Below, in pieces: positions 15,360-39,781 of a stretch of 64,000 nt of DNA (position 1 is the first letter of the stretch; every line of letters starts with the position of its first letter). The notes beneath the pieces are model-generated. The model ran no database searches. It worked only from the letters and a program-made list of their open reading frames with translations, and was not told the origin of the DNA. Origin of the DNA: Clavaria fumosa. Its lineage: Eukaryota; Basidiomycota; Agaricomycetes; Agaricales; Clavariaceae. The translations under genes were made by a program, and so were the position numbers. The stretch covers positions 3,162,001 to 3,226,000 of the forward strand of contig OX637801.1 in the NCBI GenBank assembly GCA_951802425.1, given 5' to 3'.

Positions 15360-15455
15360 AAAATAGCTAGTGTGACCGAGTACTAGGCCATGCACAGTAA
15401 TGGGACAACTTCGGCAGAATTTTAGACATCCAATTCATATTCCACCTGTGAAGTG

Positions 15456-15476
15456 ATGCACCTTAACCCCAAGCCA
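15456..15476 (+). pseudogene. 5' fragment of a secreted cysteine-rich protein gene cut by element A
   Basis: An ATG at 15456 opens seven codons that end in CCC AAG CCA exactly at the border of element A. The same nine bases recur at 39781-39789 beyond the far border and lead in frame into a hydrophobic signal-peptide core. Dropping one copy of the duplication gives one continuous reading frame with the 39790-40226 fragment. The gene is therefore split by about 24 kb of transposon. The promoter side is also crowded by chromovirus G1, which ends at 15359. Confidence 0.8.
15468..15476. repeat. Target-site duplication of element A (left copy, CCCAAGCCA)
   Basis: CCCAAGCCA occurs here and at 39781-39789. 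If the first C is chance, the TSD is 8 bp (CCAAGCCA) and element A starts with G at 15477 and ends with C at 39781. Zisupton-type relatives of KDZ transposases are known to make 8-bp duplications. Confidence 0.8.
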
Positions 15477-17790
15477 GCCCATTCAGTCACAAAAGGACGC
15501 TAATATCGTGCCACCCACAAAGTACACCAGTACGTATTTAGCGTTTCGGCCAGCCTCGGCCAAGATAACATAGATTGCACAATAAATATGGCTTGGGGCA
15601 ACAGAATGTGTAAACGATAATATCACCTTGGCCCAGATGTCAAGTACCACACAATAATTGAATAGGCCAGTGAGTGAAGCCTGCTGACAAGAATATTGCA
15701 TGGGCCAATTGGCTCATTGTAATGATGACCAAGCTTTTCATATCATCTTGGCCAAGATACAATGGTGAAAATATGATTCTGGCCAACATGGATAATATGC
15801 TGCAATATTCAGACTGGCCAACATGGATAATATGCCGCAATATTCAGACTGGCCAACATGGATGATATGCTGCAATATTCAGACTGGCCAATACTCATTG
15901 ACCTGGGATAGTAATTGATTCTGGCCAAGATATCTCCGCAATACCATCGGCCAAGATTCTTGTAATTCGTTTTGGCCAAGACAAGTCATGAATATTGTCT
16001 TGGCCAAGCATAGGCAACACAAATATAGTCCTGGCCAACATGCCAGGCATTCTGTAATATTAAGACTGGCCAATACCAATAACTGGACTCAGCCAATTTG
16101 TTTCGGCCAAGAAATATCATTAATATCCTCTTGGCCCAGCCTAGGCAACACAAATATAGTACTGGCCAATACCAATAACTGGACTCAGGTAATTCATTTC
16201 GGCCAAGATGGGTCATTAATATCCTTTTGGCCCAGCCTAGCCAACACAAATATAGTCCTGGCCAACATGCCAGACACGTTGTAATATTAAGACTGGCCAA
16301 TACCAATAACTGGAGTCAGGTAATTTGTTTTGGCCAAGAAATCTCATTAATGTCATCTTGGCCCAGCCTAGGCAACACAAATATGGTCCTGGCCAACATG
16401 CCAGACATGCTGTAATATTAAGACTAAGTCGTTTCGGCCAAGACCTTTATTAATGTCATCTTGGCCAAGATCTGTTATTAATGTCATCTTGGCCCAGCCT
16501 GAGCAACACAAATATAATCCTGGCCAACATGCCAGACATGCTGTAATATTAAGACTGGCCAATACCTATAACTAGACTCAGATAATTCGTTTCGGCCAGG
16601 ATTGGTCATTAATATCGTTTTGGCCCAGCCTAGCCAACACAAATAAAGTCCTGGCCAACATGCCAGACACATTGTAATATTAAGACTGGCCAATACCAAT
16701 AACTGGAGTCAGGTAATTTGTTTTGGCCAAGAAATCTCATTAATGTCATCTTGGCCCAGCCTAAGCAACATAAATATAGTCCTGGCCAACATGCCAGACA
16801 TACTGTAATATTAGGACTGGCCAATACCAATAACTAGACTCAGGTAATTCATTTCGGCCAAGATGGGTCATTAATATCGTTTTGGCCCAGCCTAGGCAAC
16901 ACAAATATAGTCCTGGCCAATACCAATAACTAGACTCAGGTAATTCATTTTGGCCAAGATGGGTCATTAATATTGTTTTGGCCCAGCCTAGGCAACACAA
17001 ATATAGTCCTGGCCAATACCAATAACTAGACTCAGGTAATTCATTTTGGCCAAGATGGGTCATTAATATCGTTTTGGCCCAGCCTAGGCAACACAAATAT
17101 AGTCCTGGCCAATACCAATAACTGGACTCAGGTAATTCGTTTCGGCCAAGATAGGTCATTAATATCGTTTTGGCCCAGCCTAGGCAACACAAATATAGTC
17201 CTGGCCAATACCAATAACTAGACTCAGGTAATTCATTTTGGCCAAGATGGTTCATTAATATCGTTTTGGCCCAGCCTAGGCAACACAAATATAGTCCTGG
17301 CCAATACCAATAACTGGACTCAGGTAATTCATTTCGGCCAAGATTGGTCATTAATATCGTTTTGGCCCAGCCTAGCCAACACAAATATAGTCCTGGCCAA
17401 CATGCCAGACACGTTGTAATATTAAGACTGGCCAATACCAATAACTGGAGTCAGGTAATTTGTTTTGGCCAAGAGATGTCATTAATGTCATCTTGGCCCA
17501 GCCTTAGGCAACACAAATATAGTCCTGGCCAACATGTAGTCATGGCCAATATGTAAGATATGCTGTAATATTCAGACTGGCCAAAAGTTATGGTTCTGTC
17601 GAAGTAATTCGTTTCGGCCAAGACATCTGTTCAACATCATCTTGGCCAGGATTGGCTAATAAAGATATAGTCCTGGCCAACATTTAAGCTATGCTGTAAT
17701 ATTCAGACTGGCCAATGCTCCAGGAACTACAATGGTAATTGGTTGTGACCAAGATATCATCAGCATTATCTTGGCCAAGATTTGGCTGAT
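15477..17790 (-). repeat. Left terminal inverted repeat/satellite of element A
   Basis: The unique outer part (to about 16010) is followed by degenerate units of about 98-131 bp rich in TTGGCC and GGCCAA. They run in the orientation opposite to those at 30340-39340. ORFs read here are artefacts of the repeat. Regularly spaced GGCC motifs could be transposase-binding sites, which is an inference. Confidence 0.85.
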
Positions 17791-18113
17791 ATTCCCAAAA
17801 TCCTATCTATGACACAATTAAAGGTTGGCCAACATGGCACTGCACTGCTAATGCAGTCACCAATACATACACCTTGGCCAATCCAGGGTGTAGATTTTGC
17901 AAATTTAAACTTGGGCCGACACTATATTTTCGTTCCTTACGTCTCTTGGCCAGTCTGTAGTTTATGGTGTCATCGATAAGGGCCTTACAATCTCGATCGG
18001 GCCATGGCAAAAAGTTCAACATCATGTGACTTCAAATCATTTTCGACTTGCCCGAGTTCTTGGCCCTTAAGTCGGCTCTTACGCTTCTCTTGTCACTCTG
18101 CCACTCACACACG

Positions 18114-20667
18114 ATGCAATTCACGCCATCTCAAGTCAAGATCCTTCAGCGGCATAGCATGGCCTACAAGGATGCCCATGGCAATGTTGCAAAACTAGGG
18201 ATTATTGCAGTTGCTGCAAGGGAGCTTGTCGATGCCCATGATGTATCCAAGACAACTAGACCATGTCCTGCAGATTTGCACAAGGTGAGTTGCTACTTAT
18301 CACTTGTGCACCCTTGAGCTACCCCAAAACTCTTAGAAAGTCGCGTATTGGTTCCGTAACTTCGCAAAACCTCAAAAACAGGCTGCTCAGCCTGATGAAT
18401 CAAACGACGAAGACTCGGTGTCCGAAAATGCCACTCCACCTGGCAAAAACAAGTACTGCAAGACGTACAAACCCCGAGACGCTGTAAATGTCCTTTATCA
18501 TGACCGTGTCATGGCGATTCTTGAGGCATCCAGTGCTGTCAAGACTGGCAGTAAACGGTTCATGGGCCTGTACCCAGCGGCACTTTCAGAGGTTGTCAAT
18601 GCGCTAACGGCAAATGAGCTCAAGGCAGCAGAGGAATTGGCATGCAAATGGAATTCAGATGGTGCGCCCCCAGAGCAGCAGAAACGGTCAGTGGCTTACT
18701 AACACATTAAACTACATTATTAACTTGAAACTTGAGGAACCGCAAGAAGCTCGCGACGAAGGTGTTAACATTCATGGAGGAGATTCGGAAAACGATGGGC
18801 ATTCAATTATTTGTCATGGCAGGCTATGGAATTGATGGCAACGTTGTCCAAACTAAGTGAATTCACATTTATCTCTAATGTTAAAATTCTAAAATTGAAC
18901 TGGAAGGTTTGAGTGTCAACCTCGTCAGGGACAGACCTTCACCAAAGCATTTCCAAATTGGAACAATGATACGTGGGAGCATTTTGGGACATATATTGTC
19001 CACCAATATCGTGCGTGTCAGCAATTCATTGTGTTCTTCATACAACCCTGACACCTCCTTCAAGCTGAGGCTGTTATTGGAGATGATGCTGAAAATGAGG
19101 ATGACGAGTCTGCTGATGAGGATGAACTGGAAATCGATGATGATGGCTATGCAATCCTGCCGGCACGAGGAGATCGCAGCCTTGTCGATTGCAAGGCAAT
19201 GATCCACAACTATGTCAAGATAAATTATAGTAAGCATAATAAATTAGCACATCCACGTCACTCACAGCATTTTAAGGAACCTTCTGTGGCAACAGACGTG
19301 CACGCGTTCGATGGGGGAATATATCTGGAGATCCAGACAAGTTTTTTGAGGTCGGGCACTTGCCCACAGGTGTGCATCTTCGAGATCCATCCCATCTCCG
19401 TCTGGAGGAGATCGCTGTGCTGTGGGATGCATGGGTGAAAAGGCAGAACAATGGGTTGGTGGGCTTGGTTTTTACAGGCTGTGACAAGAGAGATCGTCGG
19501 GACCAGTCAAAGAGGCAAGTGAAGGGGAAAAAGAAGGAACAGTATGTTGAGATTGACGAGGATGAGGACAACAATGACAATGACGATGACAACGACAACG
19601 ACGGCAATGACAACAACAACAACAACAACAACGACAAGGGCTGTGATGTCAAGCCTTTGGCCAAATCATGTCCTGGTTTGCCAACGAGAACAGCTGATGA
19701 GGATGCCCTGGCAAATGCGGCAGTTGATGACTCGGCCGAATCTATTGCTAACATCTTGGCTGAAGGCCTGACATCACCTGATGAAAGCACATTGGCCATC
19801 ACCGACGACAATGCTCTAGTGCCCCGTCCTACCACTCTTGCTTCTGTGCATCCAGCCAGCCCTGCCGCTGTGCCCCACAGCAAGGAGACTTGGATTGCGT
19901 ACTTGCGCCAATTGTCACAGGACCCCCGTTTCCAGGAAATGGTAAATTTTGTGGACAATACAAATGTAAGTACATACACTTTCCAATTTTTATGTGTTAA
20001 TATAGCCTTTCAGGGTGAGGCCGACTTTCTTGCGAAGACCACTCAGGCTCTCCCTGAGTGGTCTTCTTGGACCTTTGCTGGCAGCTACTTGCCCCAGACA
20101 TTCCACACATCTGCAGGTTTCGAGAAGGCCAAAGCTCTGCTGCATGCAGAGCTTGTCAACACCGCTGCTGCACCTTTGATTGTATTGGGAATCGGACTGG
20201 GGCTCCGTGACATTGCCCGCCAGCAGGAGATTGAACCGGGAACTCCGCCACCTGGAGTCCCTCAGTGGCTCCTTGATTCAGCACTTACGGTTGCTATCCA
20301 TCAAGACTCACTCATTGGTCGCCCACCTCTAGAGCATGTCCGGAAGAGGAAGCCAGGAGATGCACCCCCGAAACCACTGTAAGTCACCAATTATGTTCAA
20401 CGGGCACTGATCATATACTCGACCAGGAAAAAGCCTCGCAGGGCGAGGATCTTGCAGGTGGAGGGTGAGCCTCCCGTAGCAGGGCCAAGGTAAGTCTATT
20501 TGACATGGCAATCGAACAGCTCTGATTATGAGTTTGGTTTCAGCACTCAAATGACTGAGGACGTCGTCCTTGTCCCCAGAAAGCCACTCCCAAGGGCCCG
20601 GAAGATGACTGCAAAAGCAGTGCAGCAGATGGCAAATACTAACCATACTACTCGCTCGAGACGGTAA
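18114..20667 (+). CDS. Element A cargo: 716-aa acidic protein of unknown function
   Basis: Nine exons join in phase without a stop: 18114-18284, 18337-18686, 18737-18856, 18907-19010, 19065-19229, 19277-19965, 20014-20378, 20427-20489 and 20544-20667. The N-terminal half is helical and basic (for example a KLATKVLTFMEEIRKTMGIQ segment). It is followed by an acidic DDE-rich run, a conserved-looking block (RRARVRWGN...LPTGVHLRDPSHLRLEEIAVLWDAW, split here), an Asp/Asn-rich microsatellite tract at about 19560-19640 and a basic tail. The style resembles a lineage-specific, repeat-associated protein family of Agaricomycetes, but I cannot name a domain. The intact frame over nine exons suggests recent selection. 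It is the cargo gene nearest the left TIR. Confidence 0.7.
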
Positions 20668-20712
20668 TGATACATACATTACATACATTACAGTACTCAT
20701 TAGAGATTGGAG

Positions 20713-20835
20713 GCTTGTGGGATTGGCCTGTATATACCTTTGTCACCGTATAACATCTGATTATGTAAGCATCTATTGGGATTGGCCTGTATATACCTTG
20801 TCACCGTATAACATCTGATTATGTAAGCATCTATT
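20713..20835. repeat. Two-copy tandem repeat of about 60 bp
   Basis: A unit starting GGGATTGGCCTGTATATACC and ending TAAGCATCTATTG occurs twice in tandem just downstream of the 716-aa gene, probably in its 3' UTR. Confidence 0.85.
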
Positions 20836-20953
20836 GTTGAGGACTTAGACTAAAGGAAAAGCCCTACAGAAAATTCCACATACACCCCCCTACACAACTA
20901 TACCAACACTACAAATTCACATACATGTACAACCATATCATTGTTGTAGCTAC

Positions 20954-21180
20954 ATGTTGTTGGAGGTACGGAGACCTTAGTCGTCGTAGCATTAGATATT
21001 ACGTAATCTGGTTCACCGTAGTCGCACCACGTAGCGTAGTCATTCCTTACACGTTTGCGGAGCTCTGTCCAAACGCTGCTTGATACAGTCCTTTGCTATC
21101 TACTGCGGTCGCGAGCATACTCTCACTTCAACACATGTTGCGGTATATAAAATGCTGATTCAAAAAACAAAAACCAAAAA
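20954..21180 (+). repeat. Diverged LTR-like fragment with A-rich tail
   Basis: From TGTTGGAGGTACGGAGACC the stretch aligns loosely with the TGTTGGAAGTCCCTAGGAC repeat at 40342, sharing TTAGTC, GTAATC and GTTT-GAGCTC blocks. It then runs into a TATATAAAATGCTGATTC tail and an A-rich run. It is probably a decayed Copia-type LTR piece inside element A. Confidence 0.4.
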
Positions 21181-21346
21181 GACGCAGTCACATGACCATA
21201 AACGACCAGACTAACAGTTACAAACACGGTTGGTTCATTTTACGACACATCACGCGCTTGCTCTTTCCCTTCAACCACCACCATCTCAACCTCGTCACTC
21301 CCTCCCCTCTGCCCCCTCCCCTCTGCCCCCTCCCCTCAAGCCGGTC

Positions 21347-21417
21347 ATGACAACTAAGGGAAACATCCAGGCAATATATCTGCAGTATATTGCCTGGATG
21401 TTTCCCTTTGTTGTCAT
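21347..21417. repeat. Near-perfect inverted repeat (hairpin)
   Basis: Arms of about 32 bp reading ATGACAACTAAGGGAAACAT and onward pair with TATATTGCCTGG...TTGTTGTCAT around a CTGCAG centre, with one visible mismatch. It lies between the 716-aa gene and the tandem array at 21500. Confidence 0.85.
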
Positions 21418-21499
21418 CAGGTGTTGGGGTCGCATCGACTCCAACGCCTGCTAAGGTAAGTGCCCAGCCCATTCTCATAATACGTTTATGCGTTCCCTC

Positions 21500-22180
21500 C
21501 CCTGCAGAATGCGTCATGGAAGAGGGTGGCTATATGGGCCATGGGAGGAGGGGCTGCCATTATGCGGCGGTCATCCTCCCACCCTCTTCCTCTCTTTAGC
21601 CGGCCATTTGAGTTATTGACGGGGGTGGCCGTATGGGCCATGGGAGGAGGGGCCGCCACTATGCGGCAGTCATCCTCCCGCCTCCCTGCACTGGTGAGTT
21701 TTTTCTTTTCTGCACTGTGACGTGGGGTGGCCATATGGGCCATGGGAGGAGGGGCCACCACTATGCGGCGGTCATCCTCCCACCCTGTTCCTTTCTTTAG
21801 CCGGCCATTTGAGTTATTGACAGGGGTGGCCGTATGGGCCATGGGAGGAGGGGCCGCCACTATGCGGCGGTCATCCTCCCGCCTCCCTGCACTGGTGAGT
21901 TTTTTCTTTTCTGCACTGTGACGTGGGGTGGCCATATGGGCCATGGGAGGAGGGGCCGCCACTATGCGGCGGTCATCCTCCCACCCTGTTCCTTTCTTTA
22001 GCCTGCCATTTGAGTTACTGACAGGGGTGGCCGTATGGGCCATGGGAGGAGGGGCCGCCATTATGCGGCGGTCATCCTCTCACCCTGTTGCTTTGTTTAG
22101 ATCGCCGTTTGAGCGATTGGAGGTCATATGGGCCATGGGAGGAGGGGCTGCCGTCATGCGGTGGTCATCCTCCTCCTCCC
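21500..22180. repeat. Tandem array with 201-bp higher-order period
   Basis: Units of about 99 and 102 bp alternate to give a 201-bp period (starts at 21526, 21727, 21928). Each unit carries ATGGGCCATGGGAGGAGGGG followed by a complementary GCGGCGGTCATCCTCCCACC, so every copy can form an imperfect hairpin. Reading frames here (Met-Ala-x-Trp-Ala-Met-Gly repeats) are produced by the repeat and are open on both strands. Confidence 0.85.
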
Positions 22181-22789
22181 TAGCTACATCTTTCGTATTT
22201 ACTGCGCTCTAGTGGAGTGGGATTTGCCTGCTGGCACTTCCCCTTCGCTCTGGAGCATTTTCATCAGGCACTCGGGCGTGTTGGAGGTTGACTTGGCCAC
22301 TCAGCCTCCAACTTCGTGCCCTACATATTTTCTCGAATCTACTTAATTTTTTTGCTACTCTACTTTTTTGCTTGGACTTCGTCGTTTTTATTATTATTTT
22401 CAAGTAACCATTTACTTAGTTAGGTGAAATATTGATAGTTTGTCAGACCTAACCCTAACCTTAGTCATGGGCCAACGTGCTCTTTTCGACTCTGATGCCA
22501 CTTCGGCCAGACCACTTTCTTTGTTGAGGTAAATATCGGCCAGGTCGTTTTTATCAATTGCCTTACCTTCGGCCCATACGATTTATTAGTAAACATCAAC
22601 TATGGGCCCTGCTCTTTTTGACGCTGATACCACTTTGGCCATTGTCGGCCAGGACGTTCTTATTGAATAGCTGAACTTCAACCGATGTGATTTATTTGTG
22701 GTTCTAAAAATACAATCATCCCTGAACATGTGGGAAAGGCATGGCCACTCATTGATTGATCTATCGATAACACCTCTCTGACCCTCACA
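22181..22789. other. Upstream region of the H3-mimic gene
   Basis: No gene is seen. Several GGCC-containing motifs (TCGGCCAG, GGGCCAAC) recall the TIR satellite. A short CTAACCCTAACC string occurs at about 22450 but is too short to be telomeric. Confidence 0.5.
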
Positions 22790-24342
22790 ATGGCCCGAAC
22801 TAAACAGACACCAAAGAAGAGTACAGGTGGACGCGCTCTACGGGTAAACCCTGGCGTTGGATCACTCCCGCCTCCCCAGATTTTGCACAGTCATGAAAGT
22901 GGGGGTGAGCAGGTACGTATTCACTGCTTACCTGCCAAGCAACTGTGCTAACCAACCGTAGTATTGTTACATGTGTCTGAATGGCGGTCATCTCGTCATT
23001 TGTGACCGCTGCTCACGAGCACTCTGCAACAAGTGCATCGCAATTCCGCCGACAATTGAAAGCTATGAACAACTTAAGTTCCTTTGCCTTTACTGCCACT
23101 CGCAGGCGTTCAAAGGGCCCACGCTACAGCCCTATTACGTGCGTCCTTTACATTCATTTTCTCTGCCCAGCTGTTCTAAAATCAGACAGGGTTTCTACAT
23201 TCACAAAGGTCTTGAGCTTGTCGATGAAAAGCTCAATCCAAATTCGTTAAAACCAGCATTTCCTTCGCATCTCACTGTTGTCGGCAACTTCCAAATGACC
23301 GCTGCCTCCCATGTCAGCAACGGAGGTCTAACTGTCCTTCATTTTATTCTTCGTGGTTTGGACAGCGCAGGATCACCTGCTGTGATCCTGGTGGAGTATA
23401 TGCGAGCATATTTGGAGTCGTCGCTGTTGTTCTACGAAGAGATTGTATTCGATTTGGGTGACGATGCTGGCATCAAGGCTCATGTTGCCAAGATGCAAAG
23501 TCTATCCGATCGTATCAAGTAAGTCAATTTATGCTTCAAATGTGGTTGTACTAATCATTGTAGGCATACCCATCCCCGTGTCCTCATCTTCGTAACAAAC
23601 CACTCACACGAAGACACAGGCGACTTATTCCTGGCACCGTGTGCGGTTCTGTTAAACATGTGAGTGGTTCATTGCATGTGCAACGTGGTTGGCTGAAGTT
23701 AAGTGTAACAGGTCCTCAACTTGCTCCTTCCATCTCAATACACATCGTTTCTTAAAGAACGCGATACCACACTGTGGATGATGTCTTGCGGTGCTTTGGT
23801 CAGGAACGCCTCAAGCTATGCCGAGCTGGCTGAGATCACCAAGCAGTAAGTTATTGCAGCATGAAATTGGACATGTATTCACATGTTTCTGCAGACTTTC
23901 AGTCCTTAATGTCGTTGCATTTACTGCAGCTGAGTTACAGCCTTGCCTCACGGTGGGGTTTATCATCGGATATGCTCAGCAAGTCTTGGTCGAAAAATTC
24001 GCACTTGAGGACTGTTTCCGACGTCTGCTTCCGACTACCTCTGCGATTTGCCGACACACCGACATCGTTCATATCCGTACAGTAAATGGGCAAGTCCGAG
24101 GAAATTGCTACACATGGGTTCATCCTGATCTGCGACCATGGGGACACCAGCTCCCTGTGCAGTGCAGCCGGTGTGGGTGTATCAGAGCATGGGTCTCAGC
24201 CAGTGGCCCTGAACTTTCTCGATTATTCACATGTGGAAACCCGAAATGTTCCAACACACTGGTTTTCAATGCCCCCGAGGCCAGGGTATGGCTCGGTCCC
24301 GAAATTCTTGGCGGTCGTTGGCTACTAACTCAACATGATTAG
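22790..24342 (+). CDS. Histone H3-tail mimic fused to a PHD-like finger; possible CHAT-like protease
   Basis: Exon 1 (22790-22912) encodes M followed by ARTKQTPKKSTGGRA, a near copy of the histone H3 N-terminus. Exon 2 (22962-23518) opens with a Cys-rich finger CYMC-x9-CDRC-x4-CNKC...CLYC, PHD/ADD-like with Cys in place of the usual His. Further exons are about 23564-23645/59, 23712-23845 and 23895-24342. The middle has an NHSHEDTGDL segment and later MMSCGAL, spaced like the His and Cys of a CHAT/caspase-fold protease; this is inference. A second Cys2-Cys2 ribbon lies near the C-terminus. The strong GTGAGT donor at 23660 is out of phase with the next exon; a weaker donor at 23646 keeps frame and gives 447 aa. 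That junction is either non-canonical or a 1-nt frameshift. The role is probably nuclear, at chromatin. Confidence 0.7.
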
Positions 24343-25068
24343 ACCCCATGTATGTAGCCTTTCTCTGTAACAGTATATGTCTGGCAAAGCCCAGGGAAAC
24401 AATCAATTTTTTTGTCTCGGCCAGTAGATTGAGTGTTAACTTGAGTGTTTATCAAAGGGATCACAACCACAATACATACAATATTCACCTCCCCTCCCTC
24501 CTTAACTCACAACTGCGCAACACCTATGTACACCACATACAACTGTGTTTTTGTCTTAGATACGTGTTGTGATTCAAAAAAGTCACAAGACTTCGTTGAT
24601 TCAACAAAGTCATGTGACTTTTTGAGTCGCCCCATACCTTGATCAAAGAGTATATCTTGGTCCAAATTCTTTGACATTATTGGCCCACTCTATTTAGTTT
24701 GTCTCAGCCAATACATACCTGGATTGAAAGGTACATCTTGGCCTATCATTGTTGGTCTTTATTTGACATAATTGACTTTTCATCAGATTGTGTTGAAATT
24801 ATGGTCAAAACAACACAGCAACCCAATTCCTTGATTGGGTATGGCTATGTGTGATATCTTGTGCATATAGTTAATAGCAAGCCAGGCCCCTCACCTTGAA
24901 AGATACAATATGGAGTATGTTCAGGGAGACGTTGCACACCCATCGTCCTCATGCACAGCAAAAGGACCTCAAGACAAGGTCAGACATCTGACTTGGTTTA
25001 TACAGGTTGCCTGACTCTTTAATGTCAGGTTAAAGATTTGGGGTACCCTCCACGCTTTAAAAAACAAC
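24343..25068. other. Intergenic region between H3-mimic and TET/JBP genes
   Basis: No coding signal is seen. The stretch contains a strong inverted repeat at 24571-24628 and scattered TTGGCC/TTGGTC motifs like those of the TIRs. Confidence 0.5.
24571..24628. repeat. Inverted repeat (hairpin), 28-bp arms
   Basis: GATTCAAAAAAGTCACAAGA and onward pairs with the reverse complement ending CATGTGACTTTTTGAGTC. The arms are largely complementary with a few mismatches. Confidence 0.8.
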
Positions 25069-26228
25069 ATGGACGCCGAACCCTATCTTCCTGGCCAACA
25101 TGTTAGGGCTGATGAGCTGAGAAGAATCACACTGACTGTGGCCTATGCCATCCTGAACCCAAGTGAGTTAGTTCCTTATTTGCTACAACTAATTCTCAAA
25201 CTTTTGTAGTCCAAACCAGTTGGGACATAGAACGCTTCGCTGACAGCGTGAAGCAAATCAACATGGTGGCAAAGTATGGCATGTCTAGCCGTACAGAGAA
25301 TGAGCTGGTTAGGCTCAGCAAGTTCTTCGAGCAACCTCAAGACCTTGGAGGTCAAGAAGACCCATGTGTCCTCCTCGATAAGCATGGACGAATAGGTTTA
25401 TGGTATTTGCCTGGAATACTTTCTCCAAGCCAAGTGGTGAGTCATGGCCCCAAACCTGTCCTCCCTTACCCACACCATTCCAGAAGGATTACAATGGAGC
25501 AGTCAACATAATTGGAGCAGCACTAGAGACAGACGTACCCAGCAATGCAGGCGTTCTGCAGGTTTCATCACTCCAGATGGTGGGGGTGAGTTTGGAGCTG
25601 GAGTTCTTAGCTTCTCGCCAGGGTGGTTTATGCAAGCACAGGAGGCAAGTGCTCATTCACTCTGTTGTTAGCAAATATCTGACATTGCTTAGAGAATTAT
25701 TGATAAGCTGCATGCTTCGGTCAGTAGCAGCAGGAGTACACCACTCCATCTCTGCAGTCCATTGCACATGCCGAGGTCCTGTGCAATGCAACAATGAGCT
25801 TGACTGCCCCACATCTATATGACTTGGGGTGCTCAGCCATTGTGAAGCTGCAATCTGGAATGGAAATGAGCAAGCCATGCAAAAACGTCGAACAGTGGCC
25901 ATCCATTTTTTCTGCGATGCAGGTCATCGTTAACCGAAAGACAGGCCCACATCGAGACAAGGGGGGGTGCCCTTCACATTACGACCTCTTAGTGAGTGTC
26001 GGGACTCACAATTCTGCCACTTTCAAGTTACAAGAACTTGGACTTTCGTTGCTTTATAAGCCTGGAGCATTTGTGATTCTGGCGGGTAAGGTGTTCCTTC
26101 ATGAGGTGACGACATGGGAAGGGGGAGAGAGGATATGTGTGGCTCATTTCATGAAAGATGCAGTGCATAACCGTTTGCAGTTGCCAAGACCACAGTGGCC
26201 AATTCATAGCATGTACTTAGATGTATAA
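25069..26228 (+). CDS. TET/JBP-family 2OG-Fe(II) dioxygenase (5-methylcytosine oxidase-like)
   Basis: A phase-consistent model has exons 25069-25162, 25210-25436, 25543-25644, 25693-25719 and 25758-26228 (306 aa). One intron is GC-AG (25645-25692) and one is only 38 nt (25720-25757). The double-stranded beta-helix shows the iron ligands: the HxD motif (His at 25950-25952, Asp at 25956-25958) and the distal His (26100-26102). The 2-oxoglutarate-binding Arg is at 26130-26132. Upstream GRIGLWYLPG and LSFSPGWF segments match the fungal family as I know it. Family members oxidise 5-methylcytosine or thymine in DNA, in the nucleus. The region 25484-25542 may be coding in another frame, so a frameshift there cannot be excluded. 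The stop lies 19 bp from the convergent KDZ stop. Confidence 0.8.
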
Positions 26229-26247
26229 AGCTGACATGAATGGCAAA

Positions 26248-29200: not shown

Positions 29201-30061
29201 ACATCAAATGTGAAAGCAGTTTTTGGTGTGGCAAGGCTGGCTGGAAAAAGACTCCTCTTGAAGAGCTGTAGATGTGGGGGACTAGCACCCACACACCCAC
29301 ACCAGCAGACACGGTGATAGAAGATGCCTGAGCTGTGCACAATGACAAGTTTAGATGTTCGGGAATTGTCCTCCACAAGTTCTGAGATGTTGCCATCAAT
29401 GTGCTTCTCTGTGTCACCATCACCAAGTTTTACATCCTCCCAAATATCCATGCCATCACATGTGCTGGGACAGGGGGCTCCACCATGGCCCATATAGAGG
29501 GTGAAACCCAGTTCAAATAGGGAAGATTTCAGGAAGCATCTACCATTCCAGACTTGAATCCGATGAAATGGTAAGGATTCATGAGTTGTGAGGATGCAGC
29601 TGTTGCAGAACAAGTTGCCTCCAAAGCAGTCAGAGCATCTGATAGATGGTTGCTCCGCAGCACATGTGGAGCATCTAGAGTTGGGTGGTGGAGCCTCTCC
29701 AGCAAGCAACTCAAAGAGATATTGTTCTCGGAATGGCAGCCAGTCTCTGAGGAAATCATTTTGTGACTTTGCCGTTGTGCCTCAGCAATGTAATCCAGAT
29801 GAACGGCACATGCCATACCTTTGTCTGTCTCGAAGGTCTGCTTGGAATATCACAACCTGGGTGGGGGTCTGTGTGATCTAAGGGAGGCAGGGAGTCAAAA
29901 CGGAATCGCTTTGTGGGGTGCTGGAGTGGAGATTTTGAGTATTTCACAGTCTTCTCTCGGTGGTGCCAATATCCCTGCCGATTTTGGTAAGGAACCCATT
30001 CCACATCTTGAAGCAGCACATGAGGTCGTTTAGCATGACTCTTTGATGATTTTCGGGCCAT
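26248..30061 (-). pseudogene. KDZ transposase of element A, 11 exons, one in-frame stop
   Basis: Eleven exons join in phase to exactly 1000 codons: 30061-29819, 29766-29095, 29042-28870, 28580-28418, 28365-28220, 28166-27778, 27715-27533, 27478-27367, 27318-26877, 26827-26575 and 26471-26248. Exon 2 holds a CxC2-type Cys cluster preceding the transposase core. The KDZ core has STCHNYRA, TGIGACAC-x-RHGCF, SVVDFQKGE, MNMDYSIC, VIYDIACQ and GAGQQDGEILETLWAEFN; the acidic residues in DIACQ and DGEILETLW are the likely catalytic ones. One in-frame TGA (27803-27805, codon 587) interrupts it. Using that GTGAGA as a splice donor would break the frame. The intron at 28417-28366 is GC-AG, and the 28869-28581 intron (about 290 nt) holds GGCC repeats. 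A single nonsense change makes this a near-intact, recently active transposase. Confidence 0.88.
28581..28869 (-). other. Unusually long intron of the KDZ gene with GGCC motifs
   Basis: This intron is about 290 nt, whereas the others in the gene are mostly 50-60 nt. It carries tandem GGGCCAAGCC and TGGCCAGG motifs like the element's TIR satellite. Confidence 0.7.
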
Positions 30062-30339
30062 TGTGGTGAATGGAGGAAGCAAGAAAGAAAGAAAATCAAC
30101 ACACAGCACGTGACTATGTGGATTAGACTTAAGTAATATGAGAATGATAATATGAATGGTTAGCATCATTGGCTGAGGCAGTAAAGCACATTCTTAGCTG
30201 ACATGAACCCCAAGGTGTAAATCTTGGCCAAAACTCTTATCTTGGAAAGATCAATGAATATTGGGAAGTCTTAATACCATGTCCAATCATAGTTTCAGTT
30301 TCTTGATTTCACCAAGATGATTTGAACAGTTTGATCATG
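30062..30339. other. Upstream region of the KDZ gene
   Basis: No gene is seen. The stretch grades into the right satellite, with the first TTGGCC motifs from about 30225. It is probably the transposase promoter. Confidence 0.5.
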
Positions 30340-33052
30340 CTGTCACCTTGGCCAACATGAACAGCATGAATCTTGGCCAAACTAATATGAGGTTAAAGAT
30401 GGAGTGTATTGGCCAGTCTGAATATTACAGCATCGCTTGCATGTCGGCCAGCACTATATTTTTGCTCTCCAATCTTGGCCAGGATGACATTAATAAAAGA
30501 TCTTGGCTGAAGCAAATTGGCCAGTCTGAATATTACAGCGTATGTACATGTTGGCCAGCACTATATTTTCATTGGCAAAGATGAAGTTAGAAAGACATCT
30601 CAGCTGAGACAAATTCAGCTGAGACAAATTCATGGGTATTATTGGCCAGTCTGAATATTACAGAATGTCTTGTATGTTGGCCAGGAATATATTTCCACTA
30701 TCCATGTTGGCCAGGACTATATTTGTGTTGCCTGGGCTGGGCCAAGATGATAATAAACGCACCTCTTGGCCGAAACGAATTACCTGATTCCAGTTATTGT
30801 CAAAGGCCAGTCTTAATATTACAGCATGTCTGGCATGTTGGCCAGGACTATATTTATGTTGCCTGAGCTGGGCCAAGATGATAATATACACCTCTTGGCC
30901 GAAATGAATGACCTGATTCCAGTTATTGCTGTAGGCCAGTCTTAATATTACAGCATGTCTGGCATGTTGGCCAGGACTATATTTATGTTGCCTGGGCTTG
31001 GCCAAGATGACATTAATAACAGATCTTGGCCGAAACGACTTACCTGAATATATTTATTGTCATAGGCCAGTCTTAATATTACAGCATGTCTGGCATGTTG
31101 GCCAGGACTATATTTATGTTGCCTGGGCTTGGCCAAGATAACATTAATAACAGATCTTGGCCGAAACGACTTACCTGAATATATTTATTGTCATAGGCCA
31201 GTCTTAATATTACAGCATGTCTGGCATGTTGGCCAGGACTATATTTATGTTGCCTGGGCTGGGCCAAGATGATAATAAATACACCTCTTGGCCGAAACGA
31301 ATTACCTGATTCCAGTTATTGTCAAAGGCCAGTCTTAATATTACAGCATGTCTGGCATGTTGGCCAGGACTATATTTGTGTTGCCTGGGCTGGGCCAAGA
31401 TGATATTAATGACACCTCTTGGCCGAAACGAATAACCTGATTCCAGTTATTGCCATTGGCCAGTCTTAATATTACAATATGTTTGGCATGTTGGCCAGGA
31501 CTATATTTGTGTTGCCTGGGCTGGGCCAAGATGATATTAATGACATCTCTTGGCCGAAACAAATTGGCAGAGGACAGTTATTGGTATTGGCCAGTCCTAA
31601 TATTACAGCATGTCTGGCATGTTGGCCAGGACTATATTTGTGTTGCCTAGGCTGGGCCAAGAGGATATTAATGACATCTCTTGGCCAAAATGAATTGGCT
31701 GAATCCAGTTATTGTCAAAGGCCAGTCTTAATATTACAGCATGTCTGGCATGTTGGCCAGGACTATATTTATGTTGCCTGGGCTTGGCCAAGCCGACATT
31801 AATACTAGATCTTGGCCGAAACGACTTACCTGAATACATTTATTGTCATAGGCCAGTCTTAATATTACAGCATGTCTGGCATGTTGGCCAGGACTATATT
31901 TATGTTGCCTGGGCTTGGCCAAGCCGACATTAATACTAGATCTTGGCCGAAACGACTTACCTGAATACATTTATTGTCATAGGCCAGTCTTAATATTACA
32001 GCATGTCTGGCATGTTGGCCAGGACTATATTTATGTTGCCTGGGCTGGGCCAAGATGATAATAAACACACCTCTTGGCCGAAACGAATTACCTGATTCCA
32101 GTTATTGTCAAAGGCCAGTCTTAATATTACAGCATGTCTGGCATGTTGGCCAGGACTATATTTGTGTTGCCTGGGCTGGGCCAAGATGATATTAATGACA
32201 CCTCTTGGCCGAAACGAATAACCTGATTCCAGTTATTGCCATTGGCCAGTCTTAATATTACAATATGTTTGGCATGTTGGCCAGGACTATATTTGTGTTG
32301 CCTGGGCTGGGCCAAGATGATATTAATGACACCTCTTGGCCGAAACGAAGAACCTGATTCCAGTTATTGCCATTGGCCAGTCTTAATATTACAATATGTT
32401 TGGCATGTTGGCCAGGACTATATTTGTGTTGCATAAGCTGGGCCAAGATGATATTAATGATATCTCTTGGCCGAAACAAATTGGCAGAGTCCAGTTATTG
32501 GTATTGGCCAGTCTTAATATTACAGCATGTCCAACATGTTGGCCAGGACTATATTTATGCTGCCTGGGCTTGGCCAAGACGACATTAATAACCTCTCTTG
32601 GTCGAAACGAATTACAGGAAGCCATTTATTGGTATTGGCCAGTCTTAATATTACAGCATGTCTGGCATGTTGGCCAGGACTATATTTGTTTGGCCTGGGC
32701 TGGGCCAAGATGATATTAATGTCACCTCTTGGCTGCAACAAATGACCTGATTCAAGTTATTGCTGTAGGCCAGTCTTAATATTACAGCATATCTGGCATG
32801 TTGGCCAGGACTATATTTGTGTTGCCTGGGCTGGGCCAAGATGATATTAATGACGCCTCTTGGCCAAAACGAATAACCTGATTCCAGTTATTGCCATTGG
32901 CCAGTCTTAATATTACAATATGTTTGGCATGTTGGCCAGGACTATATTTGTGTTGCCTAGGCTGGGCCAAAAGGATATTAATGACACATCTTGGCCGAAA
33001 TGAATTACCTGAGTCCAGTTATTGGTATTGGCCAGTACTCTATTTGTGTTGC
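30340..33052 (+). repeat. Right TIR satellite of element A, 131-bp tandem array (first part)
   Basis: From about 30640 the array repeats with an exact 131-bp period (for example 30948, 31079, 31210, 31341, 31472, 31603). The unit contains GGCCAGTCTTAATATTACAG, GGCATGTTGGCCAGGAC and CTTGGCCGAAACGAATTACC. The array resumes after the chromovirus insertion, at 38954-39340. Translated ORFs here repeat every 131 bp on both strands and are not genes. Confidence 0.93.
33048..33052. repeat. Target-site duplication GTTGC (left copy) of G2
   Basis: GTTGC precedes the 5' LTR and recurs at 38949-38953 after the 3' LTR, inside the satellite sequence TGTTGCCTAGGC. Confidence 0.9.
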
Positions 33053-33357
33053 TGTCAGGATCGCTTACATAAGCAGGTTGGAAAGGCCAAGAAAGGATCG
33101 CAAAAGAGTTGCGGGAAGTTTGCGGACGAGTCACGTGACCCGAACGGGTGGTGGCTTACATAATGGGAAAATCACGTGACCCGGGCCTGGACGCATCACG
33201 TGACGCACGGGGTCCGAGCGTGGGAACGCCGGCAACTCCCGAACCGCTCGCTATATATACTACGTCGCTTTCTTACTTGTACCCTTTTCCCCTTATGTTA
33301 GTATCGTCATCATCGACCTTACGTTAAGTTGTGTGAACCGTGAGACTAAGTCTGACA
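33053..33357 (+). repeat. 5' LTR of G2
   Basis: A 305-bp LTR with a TATATATA box at about 33250-33258 and four CACGTGA/TCACGTGAC motifs that may bind bHLH factors. Confidence 0.92.
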
Positions 33358-33359
33358 CA

Positions 33360-33369
33360 ATACTAACAT
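33360..33369 (+). other. Putative self-priming PBS of G2
   Basis: ATACTAACAT, two bases after the 5' LTR, is the exact reverse complement of 33295-33304 in the LTR, about 40 nt downstream of its TATA box. This is the same arrangement as in G1 and in Tf1-type elements. Confidence 0.55.
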
Positions 33370-34007
33370 CAACCCCTGTCTGCCCTAGCCCCGTGTCCTA
33401 ACCCGGCTAGCCTGGACCCCTATCTCAAACTGTCACACTCTGTGACAGCTTATCCCCCTCATCCTCTTTCTCTTTACCCTGCCCACGGTGTGCAACAGAA
33501 CCGTGTGAAATTTTTACTGTGTGTAGATACACGTGACCAGACCCGGAGGAAGTCTACTGTGACCCTCCCCAAGAGACACCGAGTGCCAAAGGCCTGGAAC
33601 TTTGCTTTACAGCTACGTACCAGTGAATCGTGTAGTGTACAGGGCACGGAAAGGCCCTATACATAGTTTTTCTGTAGTTTCCTGGTCCAGTGGACAGGGC
33701 CCTTGCTCTGTGACCATTGTCAGAAGGGCACACGGGCAACTCACTAGGAGTTGTGGAGTGACCACCTGGGACACCATTCGGGCCCCACGCTAGCAACAAG
33801 TTTTATAGAATAAGAGTTCTATAAGTACCTAGATACATAGAGAGCAGCCTGAGAGGACAGGACTGCTAAGAGATCGAAGAAATCCTGAGTGCCCAAGGCC
33901 CGGAATTCTATTTACAGCGTCTGCGTCCGAGACCGGGTCGAGCCCAGCTCCCCCCCGATTCCCCTGTTACCGACGTCCCCGAAACCCCATCACCACCACC
34001 AGGGTCT

Positions 34008-35012
34008 GTGATGGCTGACCACGTCGCCCCGCCTGAAGTCCATGCCACGAGGCTGGATTTAGTCGTTGCCCCATTCGATGGGCAAAAAAGAAATTTCCGT
34101 ACATTCCTCCGGTCGCTCCGCCTCCTGTTTATGGCGAATCCGATAATCTATGCCACGGACCTGGCAAAGGTCCTCTACACCCTCAGCAAAATTACTGGCG
34201 AGGGGTTTGCCGCAGAATGGGCAAATGTGAAGGGAGAGGAAATCCTGGGTAACAACGAGGTTGGAACCTGGGCAGAATTTGTGGAAGAGATGAAGCGAGC
34301 GTTCGATGACCCGAACGACCGTGCGACTGCCCTTGCAGATATTGCGAAGTTCAAACAGGGTGTCATGACGGCACCTGAGTTCTTCGCAAAGTTCGAAACA
34401 ATGTTCCGAAGAGCGGGGATGACAGAAGTGGCCAATTCGGACATCCTGGTCCATTGGCTGGAGTCGAATCTGAGCAGGAGGCTAGTGGGAAAGGTCTATG
34501 GTGTTTCGCCAATGCCAGAGACCTACGTGCAGTGGAAGGCACTTGCCGAAAAGCTAGACGCTCAGCAGCATCGCCTCGATGGAGTCATCGCACAACAGAA
34601 CTCTGTGCGTCCTGCTCTGCCCGCAACCAGCCGCCCCCTCCCTCAACAAACCCGCTTCGCCCCAGCCTCCCGTCCCTTCCTGGCCCAGCCTCTGGCCCGC
34701 ACCCCTGCCCCTCCCACCATGCCGCGTCCCACCAATGCCGGTGATGCCATGGTGGTGGATCGTGCCCGTGCCCCTGGAGTGTTGCGCACCTGCTTCCGAT
34801 GTGGCCAAGCTGGTCACATGGTGAGAGATTGCCAGCTCCAGGACACACGTCCGCAGATCCCGAGGCCGCAGATCCGCACCGTGGAAAGCCAGGCACGTAG
34901 TGCAGAGGACTATGAGAACGAGATCACACTGCTCCGAGACCGCCTGGATTTGCTCGAGAGAGAGAAGAGGGCTCCTGTTGAAGAGCCGGATTTTGGAGAC
35001 GAGGCCCAGTGA
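34008..35012 (+). CDS. gag: G2 Gag
   Basis: The 334-aa ORF has a retrotransposon Gag core (about residues 20-185), a Pro/Ala-rich linker and a CCHC knuckle (CFRCGQAGHMVRDC, about residues 263-276). The ATG at 34008 is the first of the frame after a non-coding leader. The stop at 35010-35012 overlaps the pol frame, which lies at -1, as in G1. Confidence 0.9.
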   Translation: MMADHVAPPEVHATRLDLVVAPFDGQKRNFRTFLRSLRLLFMANPIIYATDLAKVLYTLSKITGEGFAAEWANVKGEEILGNNEVGTWAEFVEEMKRAFDDPNDRATALADIAKFKQGVMTAPEFFAKFETMFRRAGMTEVANSDILVHWLESNLSRRLVGKVYGVSPMPETYVQWKALAEKLDAQQHRLDGVIAQQNSVRPALPATSRPLPQQTRFAPASRPFLAQPLARTPAPPTMPRPTNAGDAMVVDRARAPGVLRTCFRCGQAGHMVRDCQLQDTRPQIPRPQIRTVESQARSAEDYENEITLLRDRLDLLEREKRAPVEEPDFGDEAQ

Positions 35013-38000
35013 GTCTGAACTGGAGTCTCAGGAGTAGATACCCCAGCCCCCCTCCCGTCCCTGTACCCGCAGCTAGTATCCCAAAATACACTATCTTGCA
35101 GCGGAGACACACCCGGATTGGGGCTGAGGTGAAGGACAAAGCGGAAACGGAAACCGCTAAAAGTGAAATACCGAAAAGAGAAAAGGGGACTAGCAGCCAA
35201 GTGGAGCCAACAAAGCACCTTGCAGAGGTGCTGAAGGACACCCTATTGCGTATGCCCCGAGAGCTCTCCATCCAGGTGCACCTGGAGGCTCTCAGCACTG
35301 GCAAAGGGGCAACTATGAAAGCCCTTGTCAACTCAGGCTGCACCAACTGCTTTATGGACTTGGAGTGGGCAAAAAAAGTGGGATTGGAACCATCTCCCTT
35401 GCTGAATCCAATCACCATGTATAATGTGGATGGAACACAGAACAGAGATGGTAAGATCCGGTATGGGATGGAGCTGCTTGTGACGGTTGGCGACCACCAG
35501 GAGCGGATCCACTTCCTGCTAGGGAAGACTCAGTCCCACACGGCGATCCTTGGGCATGATTGGCTAAAGCGTCATAATCCAGAGATTGACTGGGTGAAAG
35601 CTGAAGTAAGGCTCACCCGCTGCCCCAACTCCTGTGCCTCCTCCCCACACAGCCACCGGTCCCCTGTTCGACCCTCAGGTCCACCAAAAGCGAGTACCCT
35701 GGCCTCGGCCAGTATCCCGGACACCCGTTTTCCCAACACTGGCCCTACCCCTGATTGGCCCAGCCGCTACCCTTTGGTTTTTAGTGAAGCAAAGTGGGAT
35801 GAGCTCCCCCGCTCCCGCCCTGACTTTGATATCAAAATCGAGTTTAAAACAGACCCTGGACACCTCTCCTCTAAGCTATACTCTCTGACGCGAGAAGAGA
35901 TGGTGGAAATGAATCGCTGGGTGGATGAGCAGCTAGCTTCTGGACGAATCCGACCTTCGAAGTCCCCGTATGCGAGCCCCTTCTTCTTCAAACGTGAGAA
36001 GGACAAGCTGCGGCCGATTATTGATTACTCTAGGCTGAACTCGTATCTAATCAAAGACAAGTACCCCCTCCCCCTCATACGAGACACTGTGGATGTGTTA
36101 AAGGGGGCGACCATCTATTCCAAGATTGATGCGAAGGGAGGTTTCCCATCGATGCAGGTCTGGCCAGAACATCAGCACCGCTGTGCTTTCCTAACGCCTC
36201 GTGGACTCTTTGAACCGGCAGTTATGTGGTTTGGGCTGCAGAATGCGCCTGCAACCTTCCAGCGCTTCATGAACCATGTGTTGAGAGAAGAGATTGCAGG
36301 GGGGCATGTCCGAGCCTATGTCGATGATGTTATAGTGTTTGCAGAGGATTTGGCTACACATCGGTATTGGATGGATCGGGTCTTGAAGAAGTTTGGGGAG
36401 AATGGCCTGTGTCTCAGACTCAGCAAGTGCGAGTTCGAGAAGAGTGAGGTTTTCTTCCTGGGGATGAAGATCTCCCACAACCGTCTAGAGCATGACCCAG
36501 CTAAAGGCGCGGCGATCCGTAACTGGCCCAGACCGAAAAATGTGAAAGAGGTACAAAGATTCAACGGGATGCTGAACTACCTCCACTGGCACATCCCAAA
36601 TCTCTCTGCCCGGGCAAAACCACTCTTCCGGCTGACAGGGAAAGTCCCGTGGAGATTGGAGGAGGAGGAGGAAGCAGCCTTCCAAGATCTCCGCCTGGCA
36701 CTAGTATCAGCCCCGGTCTTGGCTCTACCACAAGACAAAGGGAGATGGAAGGTAGAAACAGATGCGAGCAACTTGGCGACTGGAGGAGTTCTCTCACAGC
36801 AGCAGGTGGATGGGACTTGGAGAGTTGTAGACTACATCTCCAAAGCCCTCACTGCAGCTGAGAAGAATTACGATGTGTACGACAAGGAGTTCCTGGCTGT
36901 AATCCGGGCACTACGCGAGTGGCGGGCTTACCTGATTGGGGTGGAAGAGACTATCGAAATCTGGATGGACCATGCTAACCTCCAGTACTTCCGGAAGCCC
37001 CAGAAGTTGAAACCGAGGCAGGTCCGTTGGGTTGGAGAGCTCCAGTGCTTTGACTTCGAGATCAAGTACCGTACTGGGAAGTCAAACACGAAAGCGGATG
37101 CACTCTCACGGAGGCCAGATTATGGAGAGATGGTGGAGGAGGATGCACCAGTACAGGTCTTCCCAGAGGCTGAGACCCGCACATCGTTCACATCGGAGAT
37201 GGAGACGCTACTCCAGAAAAACAGTGCGGTATATGTGCAGAAGCCGGAGGAGCTTGATGATGAGTGGACGAGAGATCGGATGGGACTCTGGCGGAAGGCA
37301 GAAATCACTTGGGTGCCCCCAGAAGCACGTGAGGCAGTGCTCACCTTTGAGCATGACCTCCCCATCGCAGGACACCCTGGTCCACGGAAACTGAGGGCGG
37401 CTCTGCTGAGGTCCTATTGGTGGGTGGGCATGGTGAAGGATTCCAATCGGTATGCAGGTGGATGTGAGACATGCCAACGAATCAAGCCTGATCGTACCAG
37501 GCGCGCCGCTCCGCTCCATCCGCACCCTGTCCCTGAGAGCCCCTGGGCAGTCATCTCTTGGGACATTGTTGGACCTTTCCCCCTCTCACGTGGTCACAAT
37601 GCGATCCTTGTCATTGTCGACAAGTTTACAAAATGAACTCTCATCGAAGCTATTGGCCTTGACCTCACGGGACTTGGTGCTGCTCGGATCCTTCGAGACC
37701 GGGTCTTCCGCGACCATGGAGTCCCGCAGAAAGTTGTGAGTGACCGGGGAACCCAATTTGTGTCCAGATTCATGAGGGAGTTTTATGGGATGATTGGAGT
37801 TAAGGCGAACCCGAGCACTGCCTTCCACCCACAAACAGATGGACAGACAGAGCGGGTCAATCAGGAGGTTGAAGTGTATCTCCGGGCCTATGTTGACCAT
37901 CTGCAGGATGATTGGGCAGAGTGGCTATCCACAGCCGAATTCGCGCTCAATAACCGTGAGCACTCAGCCACTGGATTCACACCTTTCTATCTGGAGTATG

Positions 38001-38632
38001 GCCGGCACCCTTGGAATGGTGGTATCCGGCCGCCCTCTGAAGTGAACCCTGCAGCAGACGAGTGGATGGCCAAGCTCACGGAATCCCGAAGAGCAGCCAG
38101 GGATGCAATGGGGAAGGCGGCAGATGCGATGAAGGCTAGCTATGATAAAGGAAAGCGCCCGAGTCGTGAATACTCAAAGGGGGACTTAGTCTGGCTGGAT
38201 ACCCGGAACCTGAAAATGGATCGACCATCCAAGAAGCTTGACAACAAGCGGGCTGGACCCTTCACCATCGAAGAGAAGGTTGGACCAGCAGCATACCGAC
38301 TCAAGCTCCCCCGAGCATGGCGCATTCACCGGGTTTTCAATGAGTTGCTACTCACCCCGTATATTGCTCCCTCTTTCCCTTCCCAGAACTTGCCTCCACC
38401 CCCACCCCCCACGATTGACGATGACCACTTGGAGTATGAGGTGGAGGAAATTCTTGATGTCAAGAAGGTTGGACGGGGAGTGAAGTATTTGGTGAAGTGG
38501 TTAGGATACCCTGCAGAGGAGAACACCTGGGAACCTCGTCGCAACCTCACTAACGTTGCACTGTTGCTCCGGGACTTCTTCCAGCAATACCCTGACAAGG
38601 CGAAGTTGGCAGGTCGAGACGCCCAGCCTTAA
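35009..38632 (+). pseudogene. pol: G2 Pol with in-frame stop and altered protease site
   Basis: One frame encodes protease, reverse transcriptase (YVDD at 36317-36328), RNase H (ETDASN), an HHCC integrase and a C-terminal chromodomain (about 38430-38590). It is broken by a TGA at 37634-37636 in the integrase core, at a place where G1 has arginine. The protease active site reads NSG instead of DSG (AAC at 35330-35332). Both changes are explained by CpG transitions. Otherwise the frame is preserved to the end, so loss of function is recent. Confidence 0.92.
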
Positions 38633-38643
38633 GAGGGGGGTGA

Positions 38644-38948
38644 TGTCAGGATCGCTTACATAAGCAGGTTGGAAAGGCCAAGAAAGGATTGCAAAAGAGT
38701 TGCGGGAAGTTTGCGGACGAGTCACGTGACCCGAACGGGTGGTGGCTTACATAATGAGAAAATCACGTGACCCGGGCCTGGACGCATCACGTGACGCACG
38801 GGGTCCGAGCGTGGGAACGCCGGCAACTCCCGAACCGCTCGCTATATATACTACATCACTTTCTTACTTGTACCCTTTTCCCCTTATGTTAGTATCGTCA
38901 TCATCGACCTTACGTTAAGTTGTGTGAACCGTGAGACTAAGTCTGACA
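38644..38948 (+). repeat. 3' LTR of G2
   Basis: 305 bp, same termini as 33053-33357; a purine tract (AGAGGGGGGTGA) lies directly upstream. Confidence 0.92.
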
Positions 38949-38953
38949 GTTGC

Positions 38954-39781
38954 CTAGGCTGGGCCAAGAGGATATTAATAACATCTCTTGGCCAAAATGA
39001 ATTGGCTGAATCCAGTTATTGATATTGGCCAGTCTTAATATTACAGCATGTCTGGCATGTTGGCCAGGACTATATTTGTGTTGCCTAGGCTGGGCCAAAA
39101 GGATATTAATGACACATCTTGGCCGAAATGAATTACCTGAGTCCAGTTATTGGTATTGGCCAGTACTCTATTTGTGTTGCCTAGGCTGGGCCAAGAGTAT
39201 ATTAATGACATCTCTTGGCCGAAACAAATTGGCTGAATCCAGTTATTGGTATTGGCCAGTCTTAATATTACGGCATGTCTGGCATGTTGGCCAGGACTAT
39301 ATTTGTGTTGCCTATGCTTGGCCAAGATGATATTCATGACTTGTCTTGGCCAAAACGAATTACAAGAATCTTGGCCGATGATATTGAGGAGATATCTTGG
39401 CCAAAATCAATTACTGTCCCAGGTCAATGAGTATTGGCCAGTCTGAATATTGCAGCATATTATCCATGTTGGCCCAAATCATATTTTCTCCATTGTATCT
39501 TGGCCAAGATGATATGAAAAGCTTGGTCATCATTACAATGAGCCAATTGGCCCATGTGATATTCTTGTCAGCAGGCTTCACCAACTGGCCTATTCAATTA
39601 TTGTGTGGTACTTGACATCTGGGCCAAGGTGATATTATCATTTACACATTCTGTTGCCCCAAGCCATATTTATTGTGCAATCTATGTTATCTTGGCCGAG
39701 GCCAGCTGAAACGCTAAATACGTACTGGTGTACTTTGTGGGTGGCACGATATTAGCGTCCTTTTTGGACTGAATGGTGTGC
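38954..39781 (+). repeat. Right TIR of element A (second part and terminus)
   Basis: The satellite resumes after G2 and passes into the unique outer TIR. That part is the reverse complement of 15477-16020 and ends with GACTGAATGG near 39776. Confidence 0.9.

Follow-up and report, generated by a model that had tools for sequence, protein, structure and literature searches.

Does the long insertion on contig C8 of Clavaria fumosa represent a working transposon that carries its own means of resisting silencing, as a preliminary description of the locus proposed, or the remains of one? The window, which is the whole stretch of 64,000 nucleotides that was analysed, corresponds to C8:3162001-3226000, in a genome of 48.76 Mb and 17 contigs. 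The joint reading favoured here, at a probability of about one half, is that of a conserved KDZ-transposon cassette, scarred at its CpG sites and dead in the window copy, which would have acted against silencing while the element was active. The 'self-contained anti-silencing system' of the earlier account is in itself plausible but unproven. The features on which the argument draws are the following, in window coordinates and with the strand where there is one.

15468..15474, left target-site duplication, CCCAAGC
15475..39780, whole KDZ element, window copy, 24306 bp with the nested retrotransposon and about 18.4 kb without it
15475..16376, plus strand, left terminal inverted repeat
15779..17558, left sub-terminal tandem arrays, rich in TTGGCC/GGCCAA
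18114..20667, plus strand, gene1, 9 modelled exons, 711 aa, with an acidic/Asn tract; open in the window copy
22790..24342, plus strand, H3m gene modelled in 6 exons, giving 436 aa in sister copies; the window copy is frameshifted
22790..22843, plus strand, H3-tail-like N-terminus MARTKQTPKKSTGGRALR
22962..23099, plus strand, eight-Cys PHD-type finger of H3m
25069..26228, plus strand, TET/JBP dioxygenase gene modelled in 4 exons, giving 339 aa in sister copies, with HxD, H, and R; the window copy is frameshifted
26248..30061, minus strand, KDZ transposase with CxC2, modelled in 11 exons, giving 1015 aa in sister copies
30703..33036, right sub-terminal array with 17.8 copies of a 131-bp unit, rich in TTGGCC/GGCCAA
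33050..38948, plus strand, nested LTR retrotransposon of the Ty3/gypsy chromodomain type, with LTRs at 33050-33357 and at 38641-38948 (98.4%) and the 5-bp duplication GTTGC
38949..39780, minus strand, right terminal inverted repeat
39781..39787, right target-site duplication, CCCAAGC

The long inverted termini that had been described are present, with 343 nt aligned at 96% and then 526 nt at 94% between 15475-16376 and 38949-39780, and the matching flanking duplication is found on both sides as CCCAAGC. The element and its ends are real, but the limits first proposed, 15477-39781, are not exact and are corrected to 15475-39780, with the 7-bp duplications lying outside. There are five copies with both ends in the genome, the window copy on C8 and others on C5, C10, C3, and C6. 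Each of the five has a perfect 7-bp target duplication, different in every case (CCCAAGC in the window; CCAGGAC, AGGATCC, GCTGTTC, and ACTATCT in the other four), and in each of them one terminus opens with CAGCC and the other with CACAC, after which comes CATTCAGTC or CGTTCAGTC. The four other copies enclose the same genes, including the C6 copy with its internal deletions, so that the search of the genome for copies with the same ends did not contradict the proposed unit. A sixth place, on C6, has kept one end and spans TET and most of the transposase, without gene1 or H3m, and C10 also holds a solitary right end. When the window flanks are joined without the element, the joined sequence aligns to two other places on C8, at 86% and 88%, each time as one unbroken match over the junction. 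Judged by these matches, the two places look like paralogous empty sites, and they did not contradict the proposed unit.

At five subtelomeric loci (L024-L028, on C4, C5, C2, C1, and C12) there is one right-end fragment of about 420 nt, which has an identical flank in all five and lies inside a duplicated block. Four of them have no further match to the window, while the C2 locus (L026) also matches array and gene1-side sequence.

The hexamer TTGGCC/GGCCAA is present at a density of 29-33 per kb in the sub-terminal arrays and the right end, at 2.6 per kb inside the element, and at 0.4-0.6 per kb in the flanks. The arrays are natural candidates for the binding sites of a protein of the element.

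That a TET/JBP gene lies within a KDZ element was borne out, since the Tet_JBP domain is over its cut-off and inside the element ends. The protein of the C5 copy scores 61 bits against a cut-off of 34.9 (1e-16) and aligns at 2e-20 with the solved CcTet of Coprinopsis cinerea (PDB 7VPN, 7W5P, 8JKK), of the same 2OGFeDO fold family, with the metal and oxoglutarate residues (HxD, H, R) aligned. Unlike CcTet, the TET of the element is encoded inside a transposon, and methylated DNA is its putative substrate. The families of H3m in the genome were named A (that of the window element), B, C, C', and D, with relatives at about 50 places. Families A, B, and C all retain HxD, H, and R, a sign that the enzyme probably demethylates actively.

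The transposase of the C5 copy matches KDZ (PF18758) at 163.1 bits against a cut-off of 26.6 (1e-47) and CxC2 at 78.7 bits against 27 (4.6e-22), and the exons of the window transposase also exceed both cut-offs. The sequences VVDGNF, IYDIAC, and DGEILETLW, which we take to be the candidate catalytic motifs of KDZ transposases, are conserved in family B save for one residue, which is not among the acidic ones. The transposase start MARKSSKS was considered as a second conserved mimic and rejected, as in the one family-B locus examined residues 1-67 are unmatched and there is no such start. The TET and KDZ models each require one intron that starts with GC rather than GT (25645-25692 on the plus strand and 28366-28417 on the minus strand).

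The remaining gene of the element, gene1, has no Pfam match (C5 protein), and its first 382 residues have no PDB match. It had been called a large acidic protein; it is large and it has an acidic/Asn tract, but because the computed pI is 6.0 overall, 'acidic' fits the tract and not the whole protein. Nor is it supported that gene1 belongs to a general kit: its position upstream of the other genes is restricted to the five family-A copies. Four other TET loci have, at a distance of 8.1-8.4 kb, no more than weak and partial relatives of it, with 31-33% over some 58 residues.

The other three genes recur together. At 18 loci counted by hand (5 of family A and 13 others), H3m and TET share a strand and KDZ is convergent; H3m precedes the TET match by 1.7-2.8 kb and KDZ follows it by 2.0-2.5 kb. 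This order is therefore that of a conserved cassette. Within 9 kb of 65 TET places there are at least 39 with KDZ, at least 36 with H3m, and at least 32 with both, against 4.2% and 2.0% for KDZ and H3m at random positions. Among the matches listed, KDZ is lacking within 9 kb of 26 of the 65, and H3m within 9 kb of 29; the places that lack them include more distant TET relatives and fragments. The places used were 65 of 67 matches for TET (two pieces of listed loci being dropped), 50 of 108 for H3m, at least 116 among 219 for KDZ, and 48 of 124 for gene1, and these counts are approximate lower bounds because exons belonging to one locus were joined into a single place by visual inspection. The TET query used in the genome search carried one 62-residue piece duplicated at its front.

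Reportedly, KDZ transposons linked to TET/JBP genes in basidiomycetes were described by Iyer and colleagues in 2014. Those elements are likewise reported to have a KDZ transposase with CxC2, adjoining TET/JBP, in many copies per genome. What may differ from them is that here the borders and the 7-bp duplications could be read, and that a protein with an H3 tail and a PHD-type finger is a recurrent third gene in a fixed place and orientation. We know of no report of such a protein as a conserved partner of KDZ and TET; the partner may be new, while the KDZ-TET linkage is already known.

The H3-mimic cargo is confirmed by the H3-like N-terminus MARTKQTPKKSTGG. In H3m the order is ARTKQTPKKSTGGRALR, a linker of about 22 residues, an eight-Cys PHD-type finger, and then about 330 residues with a zinc-ribbon-like Cys pattern at their end. 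The tail is identical to H3 at 13 of 17 residues. A DNA pattern for MARTKQT has 10 matches in 48.8 Mb, of which 5 are family A, 3 are family C, and 2 are H3 genes; with equal base frequencies about 0.05 would be expected, and the reversed pattern has none, which rejects a chance resemblance to H3.

A profile of five H3m family members matches PHD fingers in the PDB, with CHD4 at 5e-7 (single finger), PHF21A at 4e-6, and AIRE at 3e-4. CHD4 PHD2, PHF21A, and AIRE read unmethylated H3K4. The same list contains ADD domains of ATRX (0.007) and, which speaks against too narrow an identification, the FYVE-type fingers of ZFYVE19 (5.5e-4) and rabphilin (0.0014) and the methylated-H3K4 readers TAF3 (0.071) and Spp1 (0.14). 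The Pfam PHD model gives 15.1 bits, below its cut-off of 24, on an H3m protein that, like the H3m query of the genome search, included 17 residues modelled later as intron. The fifth ligand of the finger is Cys where PHD has His, giving eight Cys rather than Cys4-His-Cys3. Over tail and finger together the profile also matches 2L43 (E 0.065), an engineered H3.3-linker-BRD1 PHD fusion in which the H3 N-terminus, a linker, and a PHD finger are on one chain, as in H3m. In contrast to 2L43, H3m is natural, is carried by a mobile element, and has the extra domain of about 330 residues as well as the eight-Cys finger. For that domain a CHAT/caspase-like identity was rejected, the hhalign probability being 0.1 against four CHAT sequences of the genome; there are four weak PDB matches, none of them a peptidase, and the candidate Cys is present in families A and B only. 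Upstream of H3m there is a minisatellite of 201/99-bp units (window 21524-22173) that varies by whole units, with one more in the C5 copy and one fewer in the C3 copy.

The tail is shared by some families and not by others. Family B starts with MARNKQTAQRST in 10 of the 11 loci fetched, N replacing T3 and R replacing K9. All three of families A, B, and C retain R2 and K4, and A alone retains K9. No H3-like start was found in the six family-D loci fetched or at the single C' locus that was read. On C2, a relative at 77% carries an altered tail. The tail is therefore not essential to every cassette, being absent in family D and altered in the 77% relative. The tails of A and B share 13 of 17 residues and their linkers 5 of 22 (P 0.001). 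For A and C the corresponding figures are 10 of 12 over residues 2-13, a range that was picked after the alignment had been seen, and 70 of 279 over the post-finger stretch (P 6e-5). Compared with the whole protein (62% identity) the A-B tail is not more conserved (P 0.16). Silent changes account for 8 of the 12 nucleotide differences in the A-C tail. Although silent sites are saturated or nearly so, the proteins of A and B are identical at 62% of residues for H3m, 61% for TET, and 45% for KDZ, and these comparisons indicate that the three cassette genes are maintained at the protein level.

One region of family C (L062 and L064, C7:1324500-1340000) has two H3m-type genes, with an H3-like tail on the minus-strand one and no recognised tail on the plus-strand one. 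There are also four short H3m relatives (L057, C3:121654; L058, C9:162233; L066, C2:4591827; and C4:4138309), 92-93% identical over query residues 4-114, each with a gene1 relative at 4.5-16 kb along its contig and with no TET within 9 kb. These four may be deletion derivatives.

On the joint reading, TET would oxidise methylated cytosine on the element during its activity. Removal of Met would expose the free Ala-Arg-Thr-Lys end of H3m, and the exposed tail could then dock into its own PHD finger or that of a neighbour, leaving the reader closed or chained, and could compete with real H3 for host proteins that bind H3K4. The TTGGCC arrays would be the likely landing sites of the transposase, and perhaps of gene1 in family A. 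A more specific form of this proposal is put forward tentatively, as a possibility that may well be wrong: H3m might be a natural histone-tail-PHD switch, in which an H3K4-type reader fused to its own H3K4 ligand is self-closed or joined head-to-tail, opens on unmethylated nucleosomes or host H3K4 machinery, and so brings TET to the element. If true, this would be a two-mark anti-silencing kit, for DNA and histone, on one mobile element, kept across families whose silent sites are saturated.

The same tail and finger could serve instead for targeting. The tail, modified at K4 by host Set1/COMPASS or read by host proteins, would tether the complex to chromatin that bears H3K4 marks, where the element could integrate or be expressed, and TET would clear the landing site rather than the donor. 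The conservation of R2 and K4 in families A, B, and C, unlike that of K9, and the similarity of the finger to H3K4-type readers are in its favour, but target sites are known from five copies only, and this alternative is considered unlikely.

Whether TET has protected the element can be judged from the substitutions in its copies. Across 12.9 kb in five copies, 129 of the 217 substitutions private to one copy are CpG transitions. Private transitions affect 16.9% of CpG sites as against 0.53% of other C/G sites, an excess of CpG transitions of about 32-fold. Polarity was taken from the majority state, so that some changes may be wrongly assigned in C6a, the copy that has diverged most. The premature stop of the window transposase is itself a CpG-to-TpG change, and three of the five differences between the nested LTRs are also CpG transitions. 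Deamination of 5-methylcytosine would be the simplest reading of this pattern, although CpG-directed hypermutation would look alike. Such a strong signature of CpG decay means that the TET cargo has not kept the copies free of methylation, that it is no simple immunity of the element against methylation, and that the kit acts at most transiently. The ratio of observed to expected CpG is 0.50 in the element interior, 0.48 in a family-B locus, and 0.85 in a family-C locus with TET, and since the cassette loci vary in this way the loss of CpG is not uniform among TET-bearing elements. On the joint reading the kit would work in bursts and resting copies would be left methylated.

It has also to be considered that TET and H3m might keep the activity of the element low, perhaps through a self-bound-reader repressor, the cassette being a form of copy-number control. 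The heavy CpG scars on copies despite TET would fit such regulation, as would a tail that adjoins its own finger. The conservation of the TET catalytic residues across families, with the active demethylation it suggests, argues against it, and we regard regulation of this kind as improbable.

The window copy is a dead member of its family that has also been struck by a retrotransposon. The nested Ty3 element of 5.9 kb encodes reverse transcriptase, RNase H, integrase, and a chromodomain, and is absent from the four other both-ended copies. The calls of intactness are based on predicted exon models projected onto the copies. On these models gene1 is the only open frame of the four modelled genes in the window copy. 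The KDZ transposase that had been described as nearly intact, with 1000 codons, is there and has its KDZ and CxC2 domains, but a premature stop is present at codon 587 of 1015. Of the three cargo genes taken to be intact, gene1 is open, while TET and H3m are frameshifted. One exon of H3m measures 96 nt, whereas all four sister copies with H3m have 100. TET exon 3 measures 161 nt, where four copies have 162 and a fifth has 165. For exon 4 the window copy has 536 nt and four copies have 537, and a fifth carries a deletion there. All four modelled frames are open in the C5 copy; there is a stop in gene1 in the C10 copy and a stop in the transposase in the C3 copy, and H3m, TET, and transposase are all broken in the C6a copy.

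That many copies are broken, that of the window included, might suggest that the genes are passengers, captured cargo without function for the element. Three cassette genes conserved in protein where silent sites are saturated, in constant order at 18 loci, make this very unlikely already. The form in which the element was first described, as a complete, intact, autonomous unit of 24.3 kb at this place, was right in its termini, in its gene identities, and in having KDZ transposon ends that enclose TET/JBP, the H3 mimic, and gene1, but its completeness is refuted by the sequence, with a 5.9-kb LTR retrotransposon nested in the right part, the KDZ stop, and the frameshifts in TET and H3m, and barring assembly errors at each of these sites it is almost certainly wrong.

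The conserved cassette of the joint reading has parallels elsewhere. The VANC proteins of the Arabidopsis VANDAL elements are an element-encoded factor proposed to remove silencing marks, in elements with motif arrays. The TET gene, as a candidate for such a factor, and the motif arrays would be the counterparts here, whereas the enzyme in the present element is a TET dioxygenase accompanied by an H3 mimic, with no sequence relation known. Mobile elements that carry enzymes of the DNA-demethylation type are known. Viral histone mimics, such as influenza NS1, have a short H3-like tail on a protein of the parasite; in H3m, unlike NS1, the tail is N-terminal (residues 1-17), lies beside a PHD-type finger, and is borne by a transposon. 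A conserved H3-tail mimic beside an H3-type reader gives a testable idea of an element that handles DNA methylation and histone marks together, and the presence of tail-bearing (A, B, C) and tail-less (D) families in one genome allows a comparison that tests the role of the tail.

Other mobile elements are present in the window. A gypsy-type retrotransposon at about 6705-15362 has a 1316-codon open pol frame (10572-14522), and its segments 6705-6942 and 15125-15362 are 100% identical, as for young LTRs; the KDZ element begins about 110 bp to the right of it. Minus-strand gypsy-type ORFs at 48682-53692, split over several frames, are similar to those at 9250-14522. A second KDZ element, at about 41345-48340, has KDZ- and CxC2-like ORFs (43116-45027, minus strand) between 44/45-bp tandem arrays, and is strongly decayed, its ratio of observed to expected CpG being 0.20.
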